A stretch of 26,869 nt of DNA from positions 1 through 26,869 of the IMG/VR virus record IMGVR_UViG_3300043775_000685; one strand, given 5' to 3'. Made by a program: the position numbers and the translations under genes. The notes under the pieces are model-generated. The model made no database searches, was not told the origin of the DNA, and saw only the letters and a program-made list of their open reading frames with translations. This stretch comes from a virus. Below, piece after piece: positions 4,704 to 20,606 of the stretch (position 1 is the stretch's first letter; every line of letters begins with the position of its first letter).

Positions 4704-5690
4704 ATGAATATAGTTTTTTTTGTCCACGCTTGGGCAGGGACGCACAACTCAGGAGCCGAGTGGACCGTACAGCATTACGCCAAATATTTTAACCAAAGAG
4801 GTTGCAGTATTGAGGTAATTTTACCCGAAGGCCAAATTTATCCCGATGGTGAAAAGTTTGCGTTTATCAAGTTTATTACTGGCTATTATTCAAACGACTT
4901 TTTTCTAGCCTTACAAAATGCAAGCGTAATATTTACGCATTTGGATAATACAGGCGTTGCGATTAACTGGGCAAGGCAATTTAAAAAGCAATTGATTTTT
5001 TTAAGCCACAACGATTCAGATTATAGGAACGTCAGATTTAAAGCGCAAAATATTCACGTCGTTTATAACAATAAAGCAAACGAAAAGAATGTACAAAACG
5101 GCGCTTATCCAAACGCTTCCATTGTCTGCAAGCCTCCAATTTTTCCTGAGGACGTAAAATATAACCGAAAGCATGGGCAGTATATTACCCTAATTAACTG
5201 CAACGAAAACAAAGGTGGTCAGATATTAATTGAACTTGCCAAGCGATTGCCTAAGCGCAAATTTCTTGGCGTTCTTGGAAGCTACGGCGAGCAAATAATT
5301 GACGACACCTTAAAAAATTTAAAGTACGTGGCCCAAACGCCTGACGTTCATTTAATTTATGGCAAAACAAATATTGTGCTTGTGCCTTCATTTTATGAGT
5401 CTTATGGACGTGTAGGCTTAGAGGCGGCTATTAACAGGCTGCCAGTAATATGCACTCCAACGGACGGATTGAAGGAATGTCTTGGACCTGCTGGCTTGTA
5501 TTTTGACCGTGACGACCTTGACGGAATGGCTGCTAAAATTGAGGAGTTGATGAGCGACGAAATTCTTTACGACTTCCACCAAAACATTATGCGCAACCTT
5601 GCCGAGGAGCGTCTTAAATACCAAGACCAAGAGTTAGAAAGATTCTTTAATTTTATTGTTGACAAAGCAAAGAAACCATACAATGAGTGA
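4704..5690 (+). CDS. Glycosyltransferase family 4-like (GT-B) protein
   Basis: A 328-residue retaining GT-B glycosyltransferase resembling GT4. The N-terminal acceptor domain starts MNIVFFVHAW with NSGAEW (15-20), matching the GG/SGAE loop of the family. The C-terminal donor domain has INCNENKGG (164-172), LGSYGE (191-196) and the signature PSFYESYGRVGLEAA, where E232 and E240 form the E-x7-E motif. No membrane segment or signal is seen. It lies after the capsid terminator and before the connector gene, which it overlaps by 8 nt. It is a second, unrelated glycosyltransferase inside the head module. Substrate and acceptor are unknown; modification of a virion protein is the most economical guess from position, but it is only inference. 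Confidence 0.87.
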   Translation: MNIVFFVHAWAGTHNSGAEWTVQHYAKYFNQRGCSIEVILPEGQIYPDGEKFAFIKFITGYYSNDFFLALQNASVIFTHLDNTGVAINWARQFKKQLIFLSHNDSDYRNVRFKAQNIHVVYNNKANEKNVQNGAYPNASIVCKPPIFPEDVKYNRKHGQYITLINCNENKGGQILIELAKRLPKRKFLGVLGSYGEQIIDDTLKNLKYVAQTPDVHLIYGKTNIVLVPSFYESYGRVGLEAAINRLPVICTPTDGLKECLGPAGLYFDRDDLDGMAAKIEELMSDEILYDFHQNIMRNLAEERLKYQDQELERFFNFIVDKAKKPYNE

Positions 5691-17233: not shown

Positions 17234-17437
17234 ATGAATATCTTGCAAAAAGACGAAATAGGAGTACCATCCACACTTGTGGCATTTGTGGCAAATGTTT
17301 TTCAAGCAATTGGGATAGATTTCCTAAATGTGGTTCTCACTATGATTATCTCTTTGCTTTCGATTGTCTATTTGATTTTTAAGATTAAGAACGAGAAAGC
17401 AGTTTTTGACAAAAAAGAAAATGAAAAAAGGGACTAG
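17234..17437 (+). CDS. Small membrane protein, holin candidate
   Basis: A 67-residue protein with an amphipathic/hydrophobic N-terminal half (STLVAFVANVFQAIGIDFL) and one strong membrane helix (VVLTMIISLLSIVYLIF, about residues 33-49), ending in a charged tail KIKNEKAVFDKKENEKRD. Size, helix plus basic-acidic tail, and position at the head of a block with an M15 peptidase fit a holin or holin-associated protein. Holins share no sequence motif, so this is inference. It overlaps the next small gene by 17 nt. Confidence 0.65.
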   Translation: MNILQKDEIGVPSTLVAFVANVFQAIGIDFLNVVLTMIISLLSIVYLIFKIKNEKAVFDKKENEKRD

Positions 17438-17543
17438 CGTAATAAAGGCAACGCCATTTGGAAAGCGTAGAAATGGCAAAGCCAAGAAAGCATATTCTAA
17501 AAGCATTAATAAGCCTAAAAAATACAGAGGTCAAGGGAGATGA
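17421..17543 (+). CDS. Very basic 40-residue protein
   Basis: A short open frame that begins with ATG inside the end of the preceding gene and ends TGA, overlapping the next start (ATGA at 17540-17543). About 16 of 40 residues are lysine or arginine (for example GKRRNGKAKKAYSK), with no acidic residues. The tight overlaps on both sides and the strongly non-random composition argue that it is translated. It may bind nucleic acid or membrane phosphates; its function is unknown. Confidence 0.6.
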   Translation: MKKGTSVIKATPFGKRRNGKAKKAYSKSINKPKKYRGQGR

Positions 17544-17764
17544 AACAGTTTTTTACATGGTTAAAAGGATTCTTGTCTGAGAATGGTGAAGCTTCTAGCA
17601 AGCGATTTGTGGGAGTATTTAGTGCCATAGCCTTGTGCTGGACATTGTACGCAAATCACGATGCGGTAAATGAGCCATCTGAGGCTTTGGTTTATTCCGT
17701 AGCTGCCTTATCTGCTGCTGCATTAGGAATTACTGCTGCGGAAAAGATATTTAAGAAAGAATGA
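17540..17764 (+). CDS. Two-helix membrane protein, probable holin
   Basis: A 74-residue protein with an amphipathic start (MKQFFTWLKGFLSENG), then two predicted membrane segments: RFVGVFSAIALCWTLYA (about residues 22-38) and ALVYSVAALSAAALGITAA (about 49-67), separated by a short polar loop NHDAVNEPSE, and a basic end EKIFKKE. This is the plan of a class II holin, with both ends inside the cell. Its position, three genes before or next to the M15 peptidase, supports a role in opening the inner membrane. It overlaps its neighbours on both sides by 4 nt. Confidence 0.72.
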   Translation: MKQFFTWLKGFLSENGEASSKRFVGVFSAIALCWTLYANHDAVNEPSEALVYSVAALSAAALGITAAEKIFKKE

Positions 17765-18513
17765 AAAACCTATCTAAGGAAGAACTATTAAGCCGTATGG
17801 AGGCAATTAATCGCAGCAATGCGATTATTTACTTTGACCTTAATGGTTTTATTCTTGGAGTAAATGTAATTTTTTTAAAAGCCATGGGATTGGGTGAGGA
17901 TGAGCATAATAAGCTAATCGGAAAACACCATTCTATTTTTGTCAGCTACGAATATTCAAAGTCTGAGGATTACACTAAATTTTGGGAAACGCTTCGAGAA
18001 GGAAAGTTCTTTGAAGGAGAATTTGAAAGGCGAAAAATAGACGGGAGTCCAATCTACTTGCAAGCAACTTATAATCCTATCTTTAATGAGGTTGGTGAAA
18101 TAACCAAGATAATGAAAATCGCAACCGACATTACTGAAACGATTTTAAGCAAAAATAAAATTGAGGAGTTGTCTGGTAAAGTCAAGGCAGAACTAGAAAA
18201 ATCAAACAAACTAAGAGCAGCAATTGAAATTGAAAAGGATGCTGCCCTAAATGACTTGGATGCAACAATAAAAAAAAGCCAAAACGAGTTAATCAAGGTA
18301 ATTGTAAAGTCTGCCTTGTTTGTAATTATGTCCGTTGGTTTTATTACAACAATAATGTATTCCTTTGCAATTTTATCAAATAAGGACACCCAAATAATTG
18401 GCTCTACTTGGTCCAATATGTTTTCCGTACTTTTGACCAATGCTTTTTCAATTGTCGGAACAATCATGGGAATTAAATACGCAACTTCAGAAGACAAAAA
18501 AAATAAAGAATGA
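17761..18513 (+). CDS. PAS-domain membrane protein in the lysis block
   Basis: A 250-residue protein with three parts. Residues about 15-125 form a PAS domain: IIYFDLNGFILGVNVIFLKAMG, then FWETLREGKFFEGEFERRKIDG, and PIYLQATYNPIFNEVGEITK ending in the IATDITE sequence typical of PAS domains in chemoreceptors and kinases. Residues 130-178 form a charged coiled coil. Residues about 180-204 and 218-241 are two membrane helices with a short loop, ending KKNKE. No kinase, cyclase or methyl-accepting domain follows. PAS domains sense redox state, oxygen, light or small ligands through flavin, heme or other cofactors; none can be named here. Both ends should be cytoplasmic. Overlaps of 4 nt with the holin candidate and with the peptidase gene tie it to the lysis genes, so it may couple lysis timing to cell state. 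This is inference. Confidence 0.82.
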   Translation: MKNLSKEELLSRMEAINRSNAIIYFDLNGFILGVNVIFLKAMGLGEDEHNKLIGKHHSIFVSYEYSKSEDYTKFWETLREGKFFEGEFERRKIDGSPIYLQATYNPIFNEVGEITKIMKIATDITETILSKNKIEELSGKVKAELEKSNKLRAAIEIEKDAALNDLDATIKKSQNELIKVIVKSALFVIMSVGFITTIMYSFAILSNKDTQIIGSTWSNMFSVLLTNAFSIVGTIMGIKYATSEDKKNKE

Positions 18514-18974
18514 AAATTAGCACGCACCTAAACTTGGCAGAAGTTACACGTAGCGATTCTGCAAAGCGTCACGGCATTGACAACACGCCAACTGCTGAGC
18601 ATTTGGAAAATTTCAAGCTACTTGCTGAGAAAGTATTTGAGCCAATCCGTTTGCATTTTAAAGAGCCTATTTTTATTTCCAGCGGTTACCGCTCCAAGGC
18701 TTTAAATGATTTTATTGGAGGTAGCGCGTCGTCTCAGCATTGCAAAGGTCAAGCCATTGACATAGACATGGACGGAAGCAAAGGCGGAGTCACCAACAAA
18801 ATGGTTTTTGACTTTATCAAAAGCAGACTAGATTTTGACCAGCTTATTTGGGAATTTGGAACGGATGCTAATCCTGACTGGGTCCATGTAAGCTATGTAA
18901 AAACAGGCAACAGAAAGCAAAAGCTAAAAGCCGTAAGGGTTGGCGGCAAAACAGTGTACCAAACTATTCCTTAA
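18510..18974 (+). CDS. M15-family zinc peptidase, probable endolysin
   Basis: A 154-residue peptidase of the M15A type, which cuts peptide links in peptidoglycan. The zinc and catalytic residues are visible: SSGYRS (57-62), SQHCKGQAIDID with H77 and D84, and WVHVSY with H126; E115 in LIWEFG is the likely catalytic acid/base position. There is no signal peptide, so export would depend on a holin, which agrees with the upstream membrane proteins. It starts four bases inside the end of the PAS gene and its stop shares a base with the next start. Confidence 0.9.
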   Translation: MKISTHLNLAEVTRSDSAKRHGIDNTPTAEHLENFKLLAEKVFEPIRLHFKEPIFISSGYRSKALNDFIGGSASSQHCKGQAIDIDMDGSKGGVTNKMVFDFIKSRLDFDQLIWEFGTDANPDWVHVSYVKTGNRKQKLKAVRVGGKTVYQTIP

Positions 18975-19855
18975 TGGAAATCAAAAAAATCTCAAGGAAT
19001 TTGCACCAAATTAACCTTGACCAAAAAGAGTCAAAAATTGCTTTGTTGTCTGACATTCACTGGGACAATCCTAAATGCGACCGAGAAAAACTAAAGCGGC
19101 ATTTGGACTACTGCAAAGAGCAAAAGATTCCAATTTTTATAAACGGCGATTTCTTTTGTTTAATGCAGGGTAAATACGACCCAAGACGAAGCAAAAAGGA
19201 CGTGCTTCCTGAGCATAACAAGGCAAATTATATTGATGCAGTAATTGAGGATGCAGTTGATTGGTGGAGTCCTTACGCTCACTTATTAACTGTTATCGGT
19301 TACGGAAACCACGAGACTGCAATTATCAAGAATTTGGAGACCGACCCATTGCAAAGGTTTGTTGACTTACTAAATTATAACAACAAAAGCATCGTTTATA
19401 CTGGAGGCTATGGTGGCTGGCTGGTTATTAAAAAGCAATTGGAAGGCAATACTTTCATGACAAAAAATTTGAAGTACCACCATGGTCTAGGATTAGGCGG
19501 AATTGTTACACGCGGCGCCATAAACCTTACGAGAGCCTTAGAAATATACGAGAATATGGACATTTTTGTTATGGGCCACATACACGAAAACTCCAGCAGA
19601 AACGACGTCAGGGACACTGTGCAATATAACACAGGCAAGCATTGCCATGAGTTAGTGCAAAAGCAAATTCATTTGGCAATTTGTGGAGTTTATAAGGAGG
19701 AATACGAGGACGGATTTGGCGGCTGGCACGTTGAACGTGGCGCTCCTGTTAAACCTACTGGAGGAAGAATTTTAAACTTTAACGGCAGAAGGGTAAGAAA
19801 TAAGGAAAATGATTATTTTGAGTTACTTGTCGACAGTTGTAAATTTCCCTTATGA
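18974..19855 (+). CDS. Calcineurin-like metallophosphoesterase
   Basis: A 293-residue two-metal phosphoesterase. The full motif set is present: LLSDIHWD (D27, H29), INGDFF (D59), YGNHET (N112, H113), KYHHG (H169/H170) and MGHIHEN (H202, H204). It has no signal peptide or membrane anchor and no second domain. Members of this superfamily cleave nucleic acids, cyclic nucleotides or phosphoproteins; phage copies are often adjacent to lysis or DNA-processing genes and are usually uncharacterised. Specificity cannot be read from sequence. It is overlapped by one base with the peptidase gene and by 4 nt with the next gene, indicating one operon. Confidence 0.88.
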   Translation: MEIKKISRNLHQINLDQKESKIALLSDIHWDNPKCDREKLKRHLDYCKEQKIPIFINGDFFCLMQGKYDPRRSKKDVLPEHNKANYIDAVIEDAVDWWSPYAHLLTVIGYGNHETAIIKNLETDPLQRFVDLLNYNNKSIVYTGGYGGWLVIKKQLEGNTFMTKNLKYHHGLGLGGIVTRGAINLTRALEIYENMDIFVMGHIHENSSRNDVRDTVQYNTGKHCHELVQKQIHLAICGVYKEEYEDGFGGWHVERGAPVKPTGGRILNFNGRRVRNKENDYFELLVDSCKFPL

Positions 19856-20073
19856 AAGCCAAGCTAATATTTGAACTACCTGAGGACCACCATGCTTGGT
19901 ACATGGCAGTAAATGCCAGCGGTATGCATTGCGTTTTAAATGAGTTTGACCAATGGTTACGCTCAAAGATTAAATACGAGGACCTAAACGACGACCAACA
20001 CCAAGTTTTCCAAGCGTGTCGGGACCAGTTGCGGACTTTGCTTTACGAGGAAAATATAGACTTAGACAAATGA
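19852..20073 (+). CDS. Small conserved phage protein, unknown function
   Basis: A 73-residue protein with LIFELPEDHHAWYMAVNASGM and NEFDQWLRSKIKYED, followed by a helix FQACRDQLRTLLYEENIDL. The stretch DQWLRSKIKY plus a later RDQLR helix recurs in small unnamed phage proteins; no function is known to me. It is locked between the phosphoesterase gene (4-nt overlap) and the next gene (ATGA overlap at 20070-20073). Confidence 0.72.
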   Translation: MKAKLIFELPEDHHAWYMAVNASGMHCVLNEFDQWLRSKIKYEDLNDDQHQVFQACRDQLRTLLYEENIDLDK

Positions 20074-20606
20074 TTGACCAAAGAATTCAAATTGCAATTT
20101 TAGCCTTTCTTGGCGGAGTTATTTTAGCTTTTGTTGTATATCCTAGACCTGAGGTAGAGACAGTTTACAAGTTTGAAACCGTGACAAAAACGGACACTTT
20201 GTTTGTGGACAAAGTGGAGACAGTTTACATTCCTAGAACTAGCATAAAAACCGAAGTTTTAAGGGACACAATACTAATTGATTTTAAGCCTAAAATTAGC
20301 CAGTTTACGGCGTCCTTTCCTTTTGAGCATGGAAGTACAAGCGTGAGCGGTGAAGTCCTTGGAGAGGTGCTAAAAATGAGCGCTACGAATGATTTTAAAA
20401 TACCAGTAGTGACCAACACAATTACCAACACCGAAACCAAGACTATTATTCAGAAACCAAAAGGAATTTACTTGGGTGCTGGCGTCAATTCTTTGCTCCA
20501 GCCGAGCGCCTCGGTTGCCTACTTGGACAACAAGTATTTATTTAGCTATCAATACCAGCCTTTGCAGAAAGTCCACCAAATCGGCGTGTCTAAAAAGTTG
20601 TTTTAA
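20070..20606 (+). CDS. Membrane-anchored periplasmic protein, possible spanin-like
   Basis: A 178-residue protein with one N-terminal membrane helix (IQIAILAFLGGVILAFVVYP, residues 7-26) and a short positively charged N-terminus, so the rest should face the periplasm. A polar, threonine/valine-rich middle (VETVYKFETVTKTDT) is followed by a beta-rich end with GVNSLLQPSASVAYL, LFSYQYQP and a final IGVSKKLF; the closing phenylalanine and alternating pattern resemble an outer-membrane beta strand. An inner-membrane anchor plus an outer-membrane-like end in the lysis block suggests a spanin-type role. An upstream non-ATG start at 20016 was rejected in favour of the ATG at 20070. Confidence 0.65.
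   Translation: MIDQRIQIAILAFLGGVILAFVVYPRPEVETVYKFETVTKTDTLFVDKVETVYIPRTSIKTEVLRDTILIDFKPKISQFTASFPFEHGSTSVSGEVLGEVLKMSATNDFKIPVVTNTITNTETKTIIQKPKGIYLGAGVNSLLQPSASVAYLDNKYLFSYQYQPLQKVHQIGVSKKLF

Follow-up and report, generated by a model that had tools for sequence, protein, structure and literature searches.

A putative flavin-type PAS sensor joined to a membrane hairpin in phage lysis cassettes and its kinase-linked relatives in large phages

The lysis cassette in an IMG/VR virus record of 26,869 bases, which was analysed over its whole length and is called the window here, encodes a 250-aa protein composed of a PAS domain, a coiled coil and a hairpin of two transmembrane (TM) helices. At the sequence level, the flavin type of the PAS domain, the hairpin, a kinase-regulator-hairpin triad in related phages, a single fusion giving rise to the PAS-hairpin form and the linkage to endolysin genes are well supported. 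We infer, in addition, flavin binding, signal transfer from sensor to hairpin, a deletion route of the fusion and an effect on lysis. The reading that we somewhat favour is that of a one-piece sensor-effector, which would adjust the lysis time of the infected cell. Control of lysis timing is preferred as a reading since lysis genes surround the gene, it shares its slot with a PHROG holin and its output is confined to the membrane.

Portal and tape-measure genes are present in the window. The nearest relatives of the portal protein are found in Cellulophaga phages (34% identity), which makes a Bacteroidota host likely. The ORF of the PAS-hairpin protein begins with ATG. The features of the cassette are as follows:

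17234..17437, + strand: 67-aa single-TM protein, a syntenic cassette member in close relatives (synteny)
17540..17764, + strand: hol74, a 74-aa membrane protein and holin candidate (conserved directly before M15 in relatives)
17761..18513, + strand: PAS-coiled coil-two-TM hairpin protein, 250 aa (ORF, Pfam, AlphaFold2, alignment)
17818..18132, + strand: PAS core, residues 20-124, AerC/Aer/MmoS/NifL-like (Pfam, PDB sequence matches 3ewk, 2gj3 and 8dik, Foldseek)
17929..17931, + strand: codon of His57, a secondary FAD determinant (conserved in 107/107)
17983..17985, + strand: codon of Trp75 in F-alpha, the primary FAD determinant (conserved in 107/107)
18133..18375, + strand: unbroken helix, residues 125-205, leading from the coiled coil into TM1 (about 181-203) (AlphaFold2, hydropathy of homologues)
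18391..18492, + strand: TM2 helix, residues 211-244, nearly invariant and amphipathic (AlphaFold2, conservation, shuffle test)
18510..18974, + strand: M15 peptidase endolysin (Peptidase_M15_3, 7.9e-19; phrog_894 endolysin, 9.3e-33)
20016..20606, + strand: 196-aa protein with one N-terminal TM helix and a long hydrophilic part, spanin-like by shape only (sequence, synteny)

The gene overlaps hol74 upstream and the M15 gene downstream by exactly 4 nt each, so that the original prediction, which had been made from the sequence alone, was exact in its coordinates. Its assignment of an M15 peptidase was likewise borne out by the Pfam and PHROG endolysin matches. No family in Pfam, PHROGs or NCBIfam matched hol74 at E<=0.01. 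The gene of the 196-aa protein is retained in the cassettes of many relatives, and searches of Pfam and PHROGs gave no significant family match for its product. Directly after the M15 gene lies a metallophosphoesterase gene (Metallophos 1.4e-5; window 18974-19855). In contigs L014, L020 and L059, the metallophosphoesterase homologue forms a block on the other strand with the small gene that follows and the gene of the spanin-like protein. A glycosyl transferase group 1 domain is encoded amid the phage structural genes (window 4704-5690).

The PAS domain claimed from the sequence was confirmed by profile searches and by structure prediction. Four Pfam PAS models exceeded their gathering cut-offs (PAS_9, 5.8e-10 and 39.8 bits at a cut-off of 27; PAS_3, 2.1e-8; PAS, 3.2e-8; and PAS_4), and NCBIfam sensory_box matched at 8.8e-13. 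The AlphaFold2 model calculated from a 15-sequence alignment displayed a PAS fold at residues 6-123, with a mean pLDDT of 78.7 and a pTM of 0.48, the latter leaving the relative placement of the domains uncertain. A Foldseek search with this model returned 531 PDB chains at E<=0.001, among which LOV, NifL and MmoS PAS proteins ranked top.

A sequence search of the PDB at E<=0.01 yielded only three molecules, MmoS (3ewk, 2.3e-9), NifL (2gj3) and Aer (8dik), all of which are flavin sensors. A Trp in F-alpha is the primary FAD-binding determinant of PAS domains; secondary determinants are a His in clusters 9 and 14, which as a secondary FAD residue belongs to the Aer and AerC clusters, and an Asn in clusters 4 and 14 (PMC10468136). 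AerC relies on a conserved Trp that it has in common with the membrane-bound Aer (PMC13401364). In our alignments W75 coincides with the F-alpha Trp of MmoS, NifL and Aer, and H57 with the His of MmoS and Aer. In the PAS domains of the PAS-hairpin family, W75 and H57 are invariant (107/107). The position of the secondary Asn appears to be occupied by Arg90 (107/107), and a member of cluster 9 (AerC) may have Arg there. Bacterial AerC-type PAS domains reach 46-51% identity, and among the best bacterial matches on plasmids, many bear the annotation of a PAS-containing methyl-accepting chemotaxis protein. Some phage members possess two PAS domains, as does AerC; many homologues in L055-L058, L061, L065-L071 and L073-L081 are about 370-390 aa long and of this kind. 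Since both PAS copies branch inside the family, the double PAS is probably the result of a tandem duplication. The PDB matches, the invariant W75 and H57, the chemoreceptor-annotated matches and the AerC-like double-PAS members together make flavin binding a strong prediction. Redox sensing by the domain, as proposed at the outset, is in line with the flavin-type pocket residues H57 and W75, the cofactor itself being predicted.

The aerotaxis receptors Aer and AerC (PAS_FAD1/PAS_FAD2) resemble the phage protein in their FAD-type PAS domain with F-alpha Trp and conserved His, AerC also in the tandem PAS of some family members and Aer in its membrane anchor. The phage protein differs from them in that it has no HAMP or chemoreceptor signalling domain, ends after the hairpin and is encoded in a lysis cassette rather than among chemotaxis genes. 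NifL and MmoS share the PAS sequence matches, but are soluble or kinase-type proteins that have no membrane hairpin as output.

In the AlphaFold2 model, the unbroken helix 125-205 holds the coil and TM1 and is followed by a short turn and TM2 (211-244), in agreement with the coiled coil and the two C-terminal membrane helices originally predicted. The protein ends about 6-8 residues past TM2. A comparison of 54 genes encoding the 250-aa form gave a protein diversity of 0.04 for loop and TM2 (TM2 0.040), as against 0.19 in the PAS domain, 0.28 in the coil and 0.25 in TM1. Diversity at 4-fold silent sites was 0.54-0.63 across all parts (about 0.59) and thus saturated. As this includes TM2, recent recombination was ruled out as the cause of its invariance. 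TM2 is amphipathic, its hydrophobic moment being reached by only 0.4% of shuffled sequences, and one face is lined by the polar and small residues S215, N219, S222, T226, S230, G233 and G237. This pattern fits tight helix packing as well as pore lining and does not separate a holin from an antiholin.

A TM helix and a gene beside the endolysin, by which holins are recognised, are both found in the PAS-hairpin protein. Of the holin-like hairpin that had been proposed, the two-TM architecture stands, whereas no holin family in Pfam, PHROGs or NCBIfam was matched. We found no homologue of known function for the hairpin. A Foldseek search with the hairpin of the kinase-linked form (type II) gave nothing significant, the best hit being ATP synthase c at E 5.8, a generic hairpin. 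A weak match of phrog_1544 to coil and hairpin (0.0014-0.046) was set aside as evidence.

Viral metagenomic contigs contain hundreds of matches to the protein. At least 85 distinct proteins from metagenomic phage contigs have the complete architecture, which is not due to chance. When 4 kb were available on either side of the gene, a peptidoglycan hydrolase gene (M15, GH19) was located within 4 kb on the same strand in 31/32 loci. The hydrolase gene directly adjoins the PAS-hairpin gene in 52/85 cases (33 M15, 17 GH19 and 2 GH24). The association with lysis genes seen in the window is hence strong in numerous phages and extends to three unrelated endolysin folds; PAS-hairpin homologues away from lysis genes, which would have spoken against it, were all but absent from this set. 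The order of the cassette varies, with the PAS-hairpin gene before or after the endolysin gene and with or without hol74. Relatives of the M15 gene provided 39 classifiable hol74/M15 cassettes; ten read hol74-PAS-hairpin-M15, four have other genes in the slot and 25 have hol74 directly before M15 with the slot empty. The gene is therefore optional, and lysis does not need it. In L107, a protein assigned by PHROGs as holin (2.9e-15) occupies the slot between hol74 and M15 along with another small membrane ORF, and the same pair occurs in L134.

These cassettes bear on the question whether the protein is itself the holin, that is, a signal-gated two-TM pore former with hol74 as a structural or accessory component. 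The hairpin as sole output, the invariant and amphipathic TM2 with its polar, small-residue face, the position in the slot of a PHROG holin in close relatives and the pairing with three unrelated endolysin types are all consistent with this explanation. A precedent is pinholin S21, a protein of about 70 aa with two TM helices, of which TM2 works and TM1 regulates; the likeness is by description, and S21 lacks a sensor domain. On the other hand, the many cassettes in which hol74 directly precedes M15, the recognised or candidate holins that adjoin the gene in most cassettes (other holin candidates are present in 30/36) and the failure to match any holin family render a holin rather unlikely. 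Since close relatives can do without the gene and further holin candidates are found nearby, we lean modestly towards a hairpin that would act as signal-gated partner or antagonist of hol74 rather than as a pore alone.

Several neighbouring genes in related cassettes are worth recording. In L087 (5347-5996), L133 (5301-5997) and L136 (5347-5995), the hol74-M15 slot encodes a small protein with a TM helix together with a lipoprotein-like protein of 119 aa; by eye only, the two resemble a spanin pair. An ORF that by eye only looks like a GIY-YIG endonuclease, and that may be a homing gene within the lysis cassette, directly follows M15 in L134 (2822-3460). A groEL-like chaperonin gene, again recognised by eye only, is located in L222 (2899-4533) shortly upstream of a cassette of PAS-hairpin, GH19 and Phage_holin_4_1 genes.

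A search with the more distant homologue L138 recovered a second architecture on contigs of up to 430 kb, in which the same coil and hairpin, without PAS, stand behind a short N-terminal domain (NT2) that gave no family match. Its gene is the third of an operon in the order histidine kinase (usually with PAS), CheY-like single-domain regulator and hairpin. The original prediction that no kinase or other output domain is present thus holds for the window protein, while relatives carry the same hairpin downstream of a kinase and a response regulator. For regulators with enough flank, pooled from a scan with the regulator as only bait and from earlier loci, the hairpin gene was directly downstream in 89/89 distinct regulators, a count that is partly circular since part of the pool was found via the hairpin itself; loci found by the regulator bait contributed no exception. 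The kinase gene was directly upstream in 85/89. An H-box was present in 128/128 kinases by pattern match, and HATPase_c matched down to 3.6e-15. The receiver (Response_reg 2.3e-8) displayed invariant D9, D10, D61, S92 and K114. Kinase and receiver therefore have the hallmarks of two-component proteins, namely H-box and HATPase in the former and Asp acceptor, acidic pair, Ser and Lys in the latter. In L225, L229, L240, L257, L284 and L329, a single regulator gene and a single hairpin gene are preceded by two histidine kinase genes, and in the second of these kinases a PAS is often not detected, which suggests several inputs to one output.

The kinase-linked hairpins, too, are linked to hydrolase genes. 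Twenty-nine contigs of 67-430 kb also contain a GH19 endolysin gene, in one or two copies. The distance from the hairpin gene to GH19 was at most 3 kb in 21 of them, compared to 1.4 expected under random placement and a maximum of 8 in 20,000 simulations; a few near-duplicates (e.g. G400 and G401) slightly reduce the effective number of contigs. Recognised holins were found near some triads. One of five kinds of hydrolase was encoded within 4 kb in 39/67 kinase-linked loci with enough flank, and none was recognised in 28/67, so that proximity to lysis genes holds in part for this form. The link is strong, not universal. A second explanation, which we also regard as unlikely, takes up this point and ascribes to the hairpin system a role in membrane signalling other than lysis (host take-over, superinfection exclusion, motility or respiration control), with membership in the late operon by gene order only. 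It would account for the 28 loci without a recognised hydrolase, for L261, L263 and L316, in which reading by eye revealed no hydrolase and other neighbours, for a chromosomal version without lysis genes and for a PAS type best known from chemoreceptors. It does not readily account for the frequency of GH19 next to the hairpin in large contigs, for the near-constant same-strand hydrolase beside PAS-hairpin genes and for the persistence of the hydrolase link while the surrounding gene order changes.

The chromosomal version is an operon of kinase, regulator and NT2 protein in a Bacteroidetes MAG (L290; CANIVF010000058.1, 5648-9029). Its kinase has three PAS domains, and its single-domain regulator is 70% identical to the phage regulator. 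In the NT2 protein, a HisKA-HATPase kinase core takes the place of the phage hairpin. This swap argues, as one example, that the hairpin is the output end, and, judged solely from domain swaps, the signal would run from sensor to hairpin. Reversal of the signal, with a hairpin that senses the membrane and feeds PAS, kinase and regulator and with the window protein as a remnant sensor deprived of its output, appears improbable. Membrane hairpins can anchor sensors, as in Aer, which combines a PAS domain with a membrane anchor, and some phage kinases bear TM helices of their own. However, the module that replaces the hairpin in L290 is an output module, the relay kinases already possess their own PAS and TM sensors, and a remnant would not retain a nearly invariant TM2 at saturated silent sites. 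No bacterial triad other than that of G001 itself emerged from up to 395 genomes sampled from the phylum. The scan of bacterial genomes with the window family detected none with a PAS-hairpin, and with the type-II hairpin the sole find was L290, in which the N-terminal domain is shared but the hairpin is not.

The one-piece form most simply goes back to a single fusion. In trees built on 114-128 columns, all PAS domains of the PAS-hairpin proteins formed one clade (95/78), as did their hairpins (100/98). The sister of the PAS clade was the first PAS of the kinase of L224 (joint clade 100/97), a 430-kb contig in which GH19, M15, kinase, regulator and hairpin genes are arranged in succession. 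Monophyly of both halves and the sister position of a phage-kinase PAS point to one fusion, which may have taken place inside such an operon by joining the first kinase PAS to the gene-3 coil, with kinase core, regulator and NT2 being dropped. No second hairpin gene was detected in eight large PAS-hairpin contigs searched over their whole length. Ordinary acquisition of a bacterial PAS gene by phages without a common function, conceivable as PAS domains are abundant and AerC-type domains are fairly similar, is very improbable given one clade on both trees, the large number of proteins of the same architecture, strong protein-level constraint and a bacterial genome scan that found no PAS-hairpin.

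For the favoured one-piece sensor-effector, the following mechanism can be envisaged. The cytoplasmic flavin-type PAS (AerC/Aer/NifL/MmoS) would sense the cell's redox or energy state. A change of state would pass along the unbroken coiled-coil helix to TM1 and shift the hairpin, with the nearly invariant amphipathic TM2 as the putative working part in the membrane. The hairpin might then promote or restrain membrane opening. In large phages, which retain the whole kinase-regulator-hairpin operon, the same job would be expected via phosphotransfer; their regulator has a single domain, and the gene that follows it always encodes the hairpin. More tentatively still, and a little short of an even chance in our estimate, phages of probably Bacteroidota hosts may carry a dedicated lysis-control circuit, as a relay in large genomes and as fused PAS-hairpin elsewhere, which would read redox, act on the membrane at the protein level without transcription and set the moment of lysis.

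Known systems share individual traits with this proposal. We know of no PAS domain, coil, kinase or regulator in the antiholin-holin pairs RI/T of T4 and ArrA/TeaA of ICP1. These pairs inhibit lysis in response to conditions (PMC7182436), and T4 RI acts in the periplasm (PMC8385771). By description, they are like the proposed role in being phage-borne and in timing lysis at the membrane in a condition-dependent manner. VqmA has a PAS-type sensor. Together with Qtip of phage VP882 it represents a phage-encoded receptor system that adjusts lysis in response to a small-molecule cue (PMC7790227). In contrast to the window protein, VqmA works by transcription on the lysis-lysogeny switch and has no membrane part. 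LrgA and CidA are multi-TM proteins unlike the hairpin described here. In Gram-positive bacteria, the LytSR/LytST two-component system is tied to these holin-like proteins (lrgAB, cidAB) and to oxygenation (PMC3507848). Unlike the phage relay, it is bacterial and acts on expression.

When to lyse is one of the major decisions that a lytic phage takes, and condition sensing at lysis is known from few cases, namely lysis inhibition in T4 and ICP1 and quorum cues in temperate phages. The occurrence of the system suggests that phages possessing it may read the state of the cell before or while lysing. If true, a phage-borne phosphorelay would act on a membrane hairpin beside the endolysin, and phages would keep two-component systems coupled directly to the lysis machinery. 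The one-piece form is small enough for testing, with W75/H57 and TM2 as ready-made targets.

In the searchable literature, which excludes preprints and most subscription papers, no system of phage-encoded kinases in lysis or of PAS domains with holins was described. Searches of 50,697 phage records by tblastn with the whole protein, coil-hairpin, type-II hairpin, regulator and kinase yielded nothing of the system. A function in anti-phage defence was rejected, as PADLOC gave no match for the PAS-hairpin protein, the regulator, the hairpin or the L290 protein and one weak fragment match in the kinase. Two further candidates were discarded: H1 (MT836939.1), the gene of a bacterial chemoreceptor with two PAS domains from a faecal record, which does not belong to the system, and H25 (MW462191.1), a different kinase-regulator pair in a bacterial-looking contig. 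Both records (L162 and L458, respectively) are filed as phage, carry bacterial chemoreceptor/two-component genes and look bacterial.
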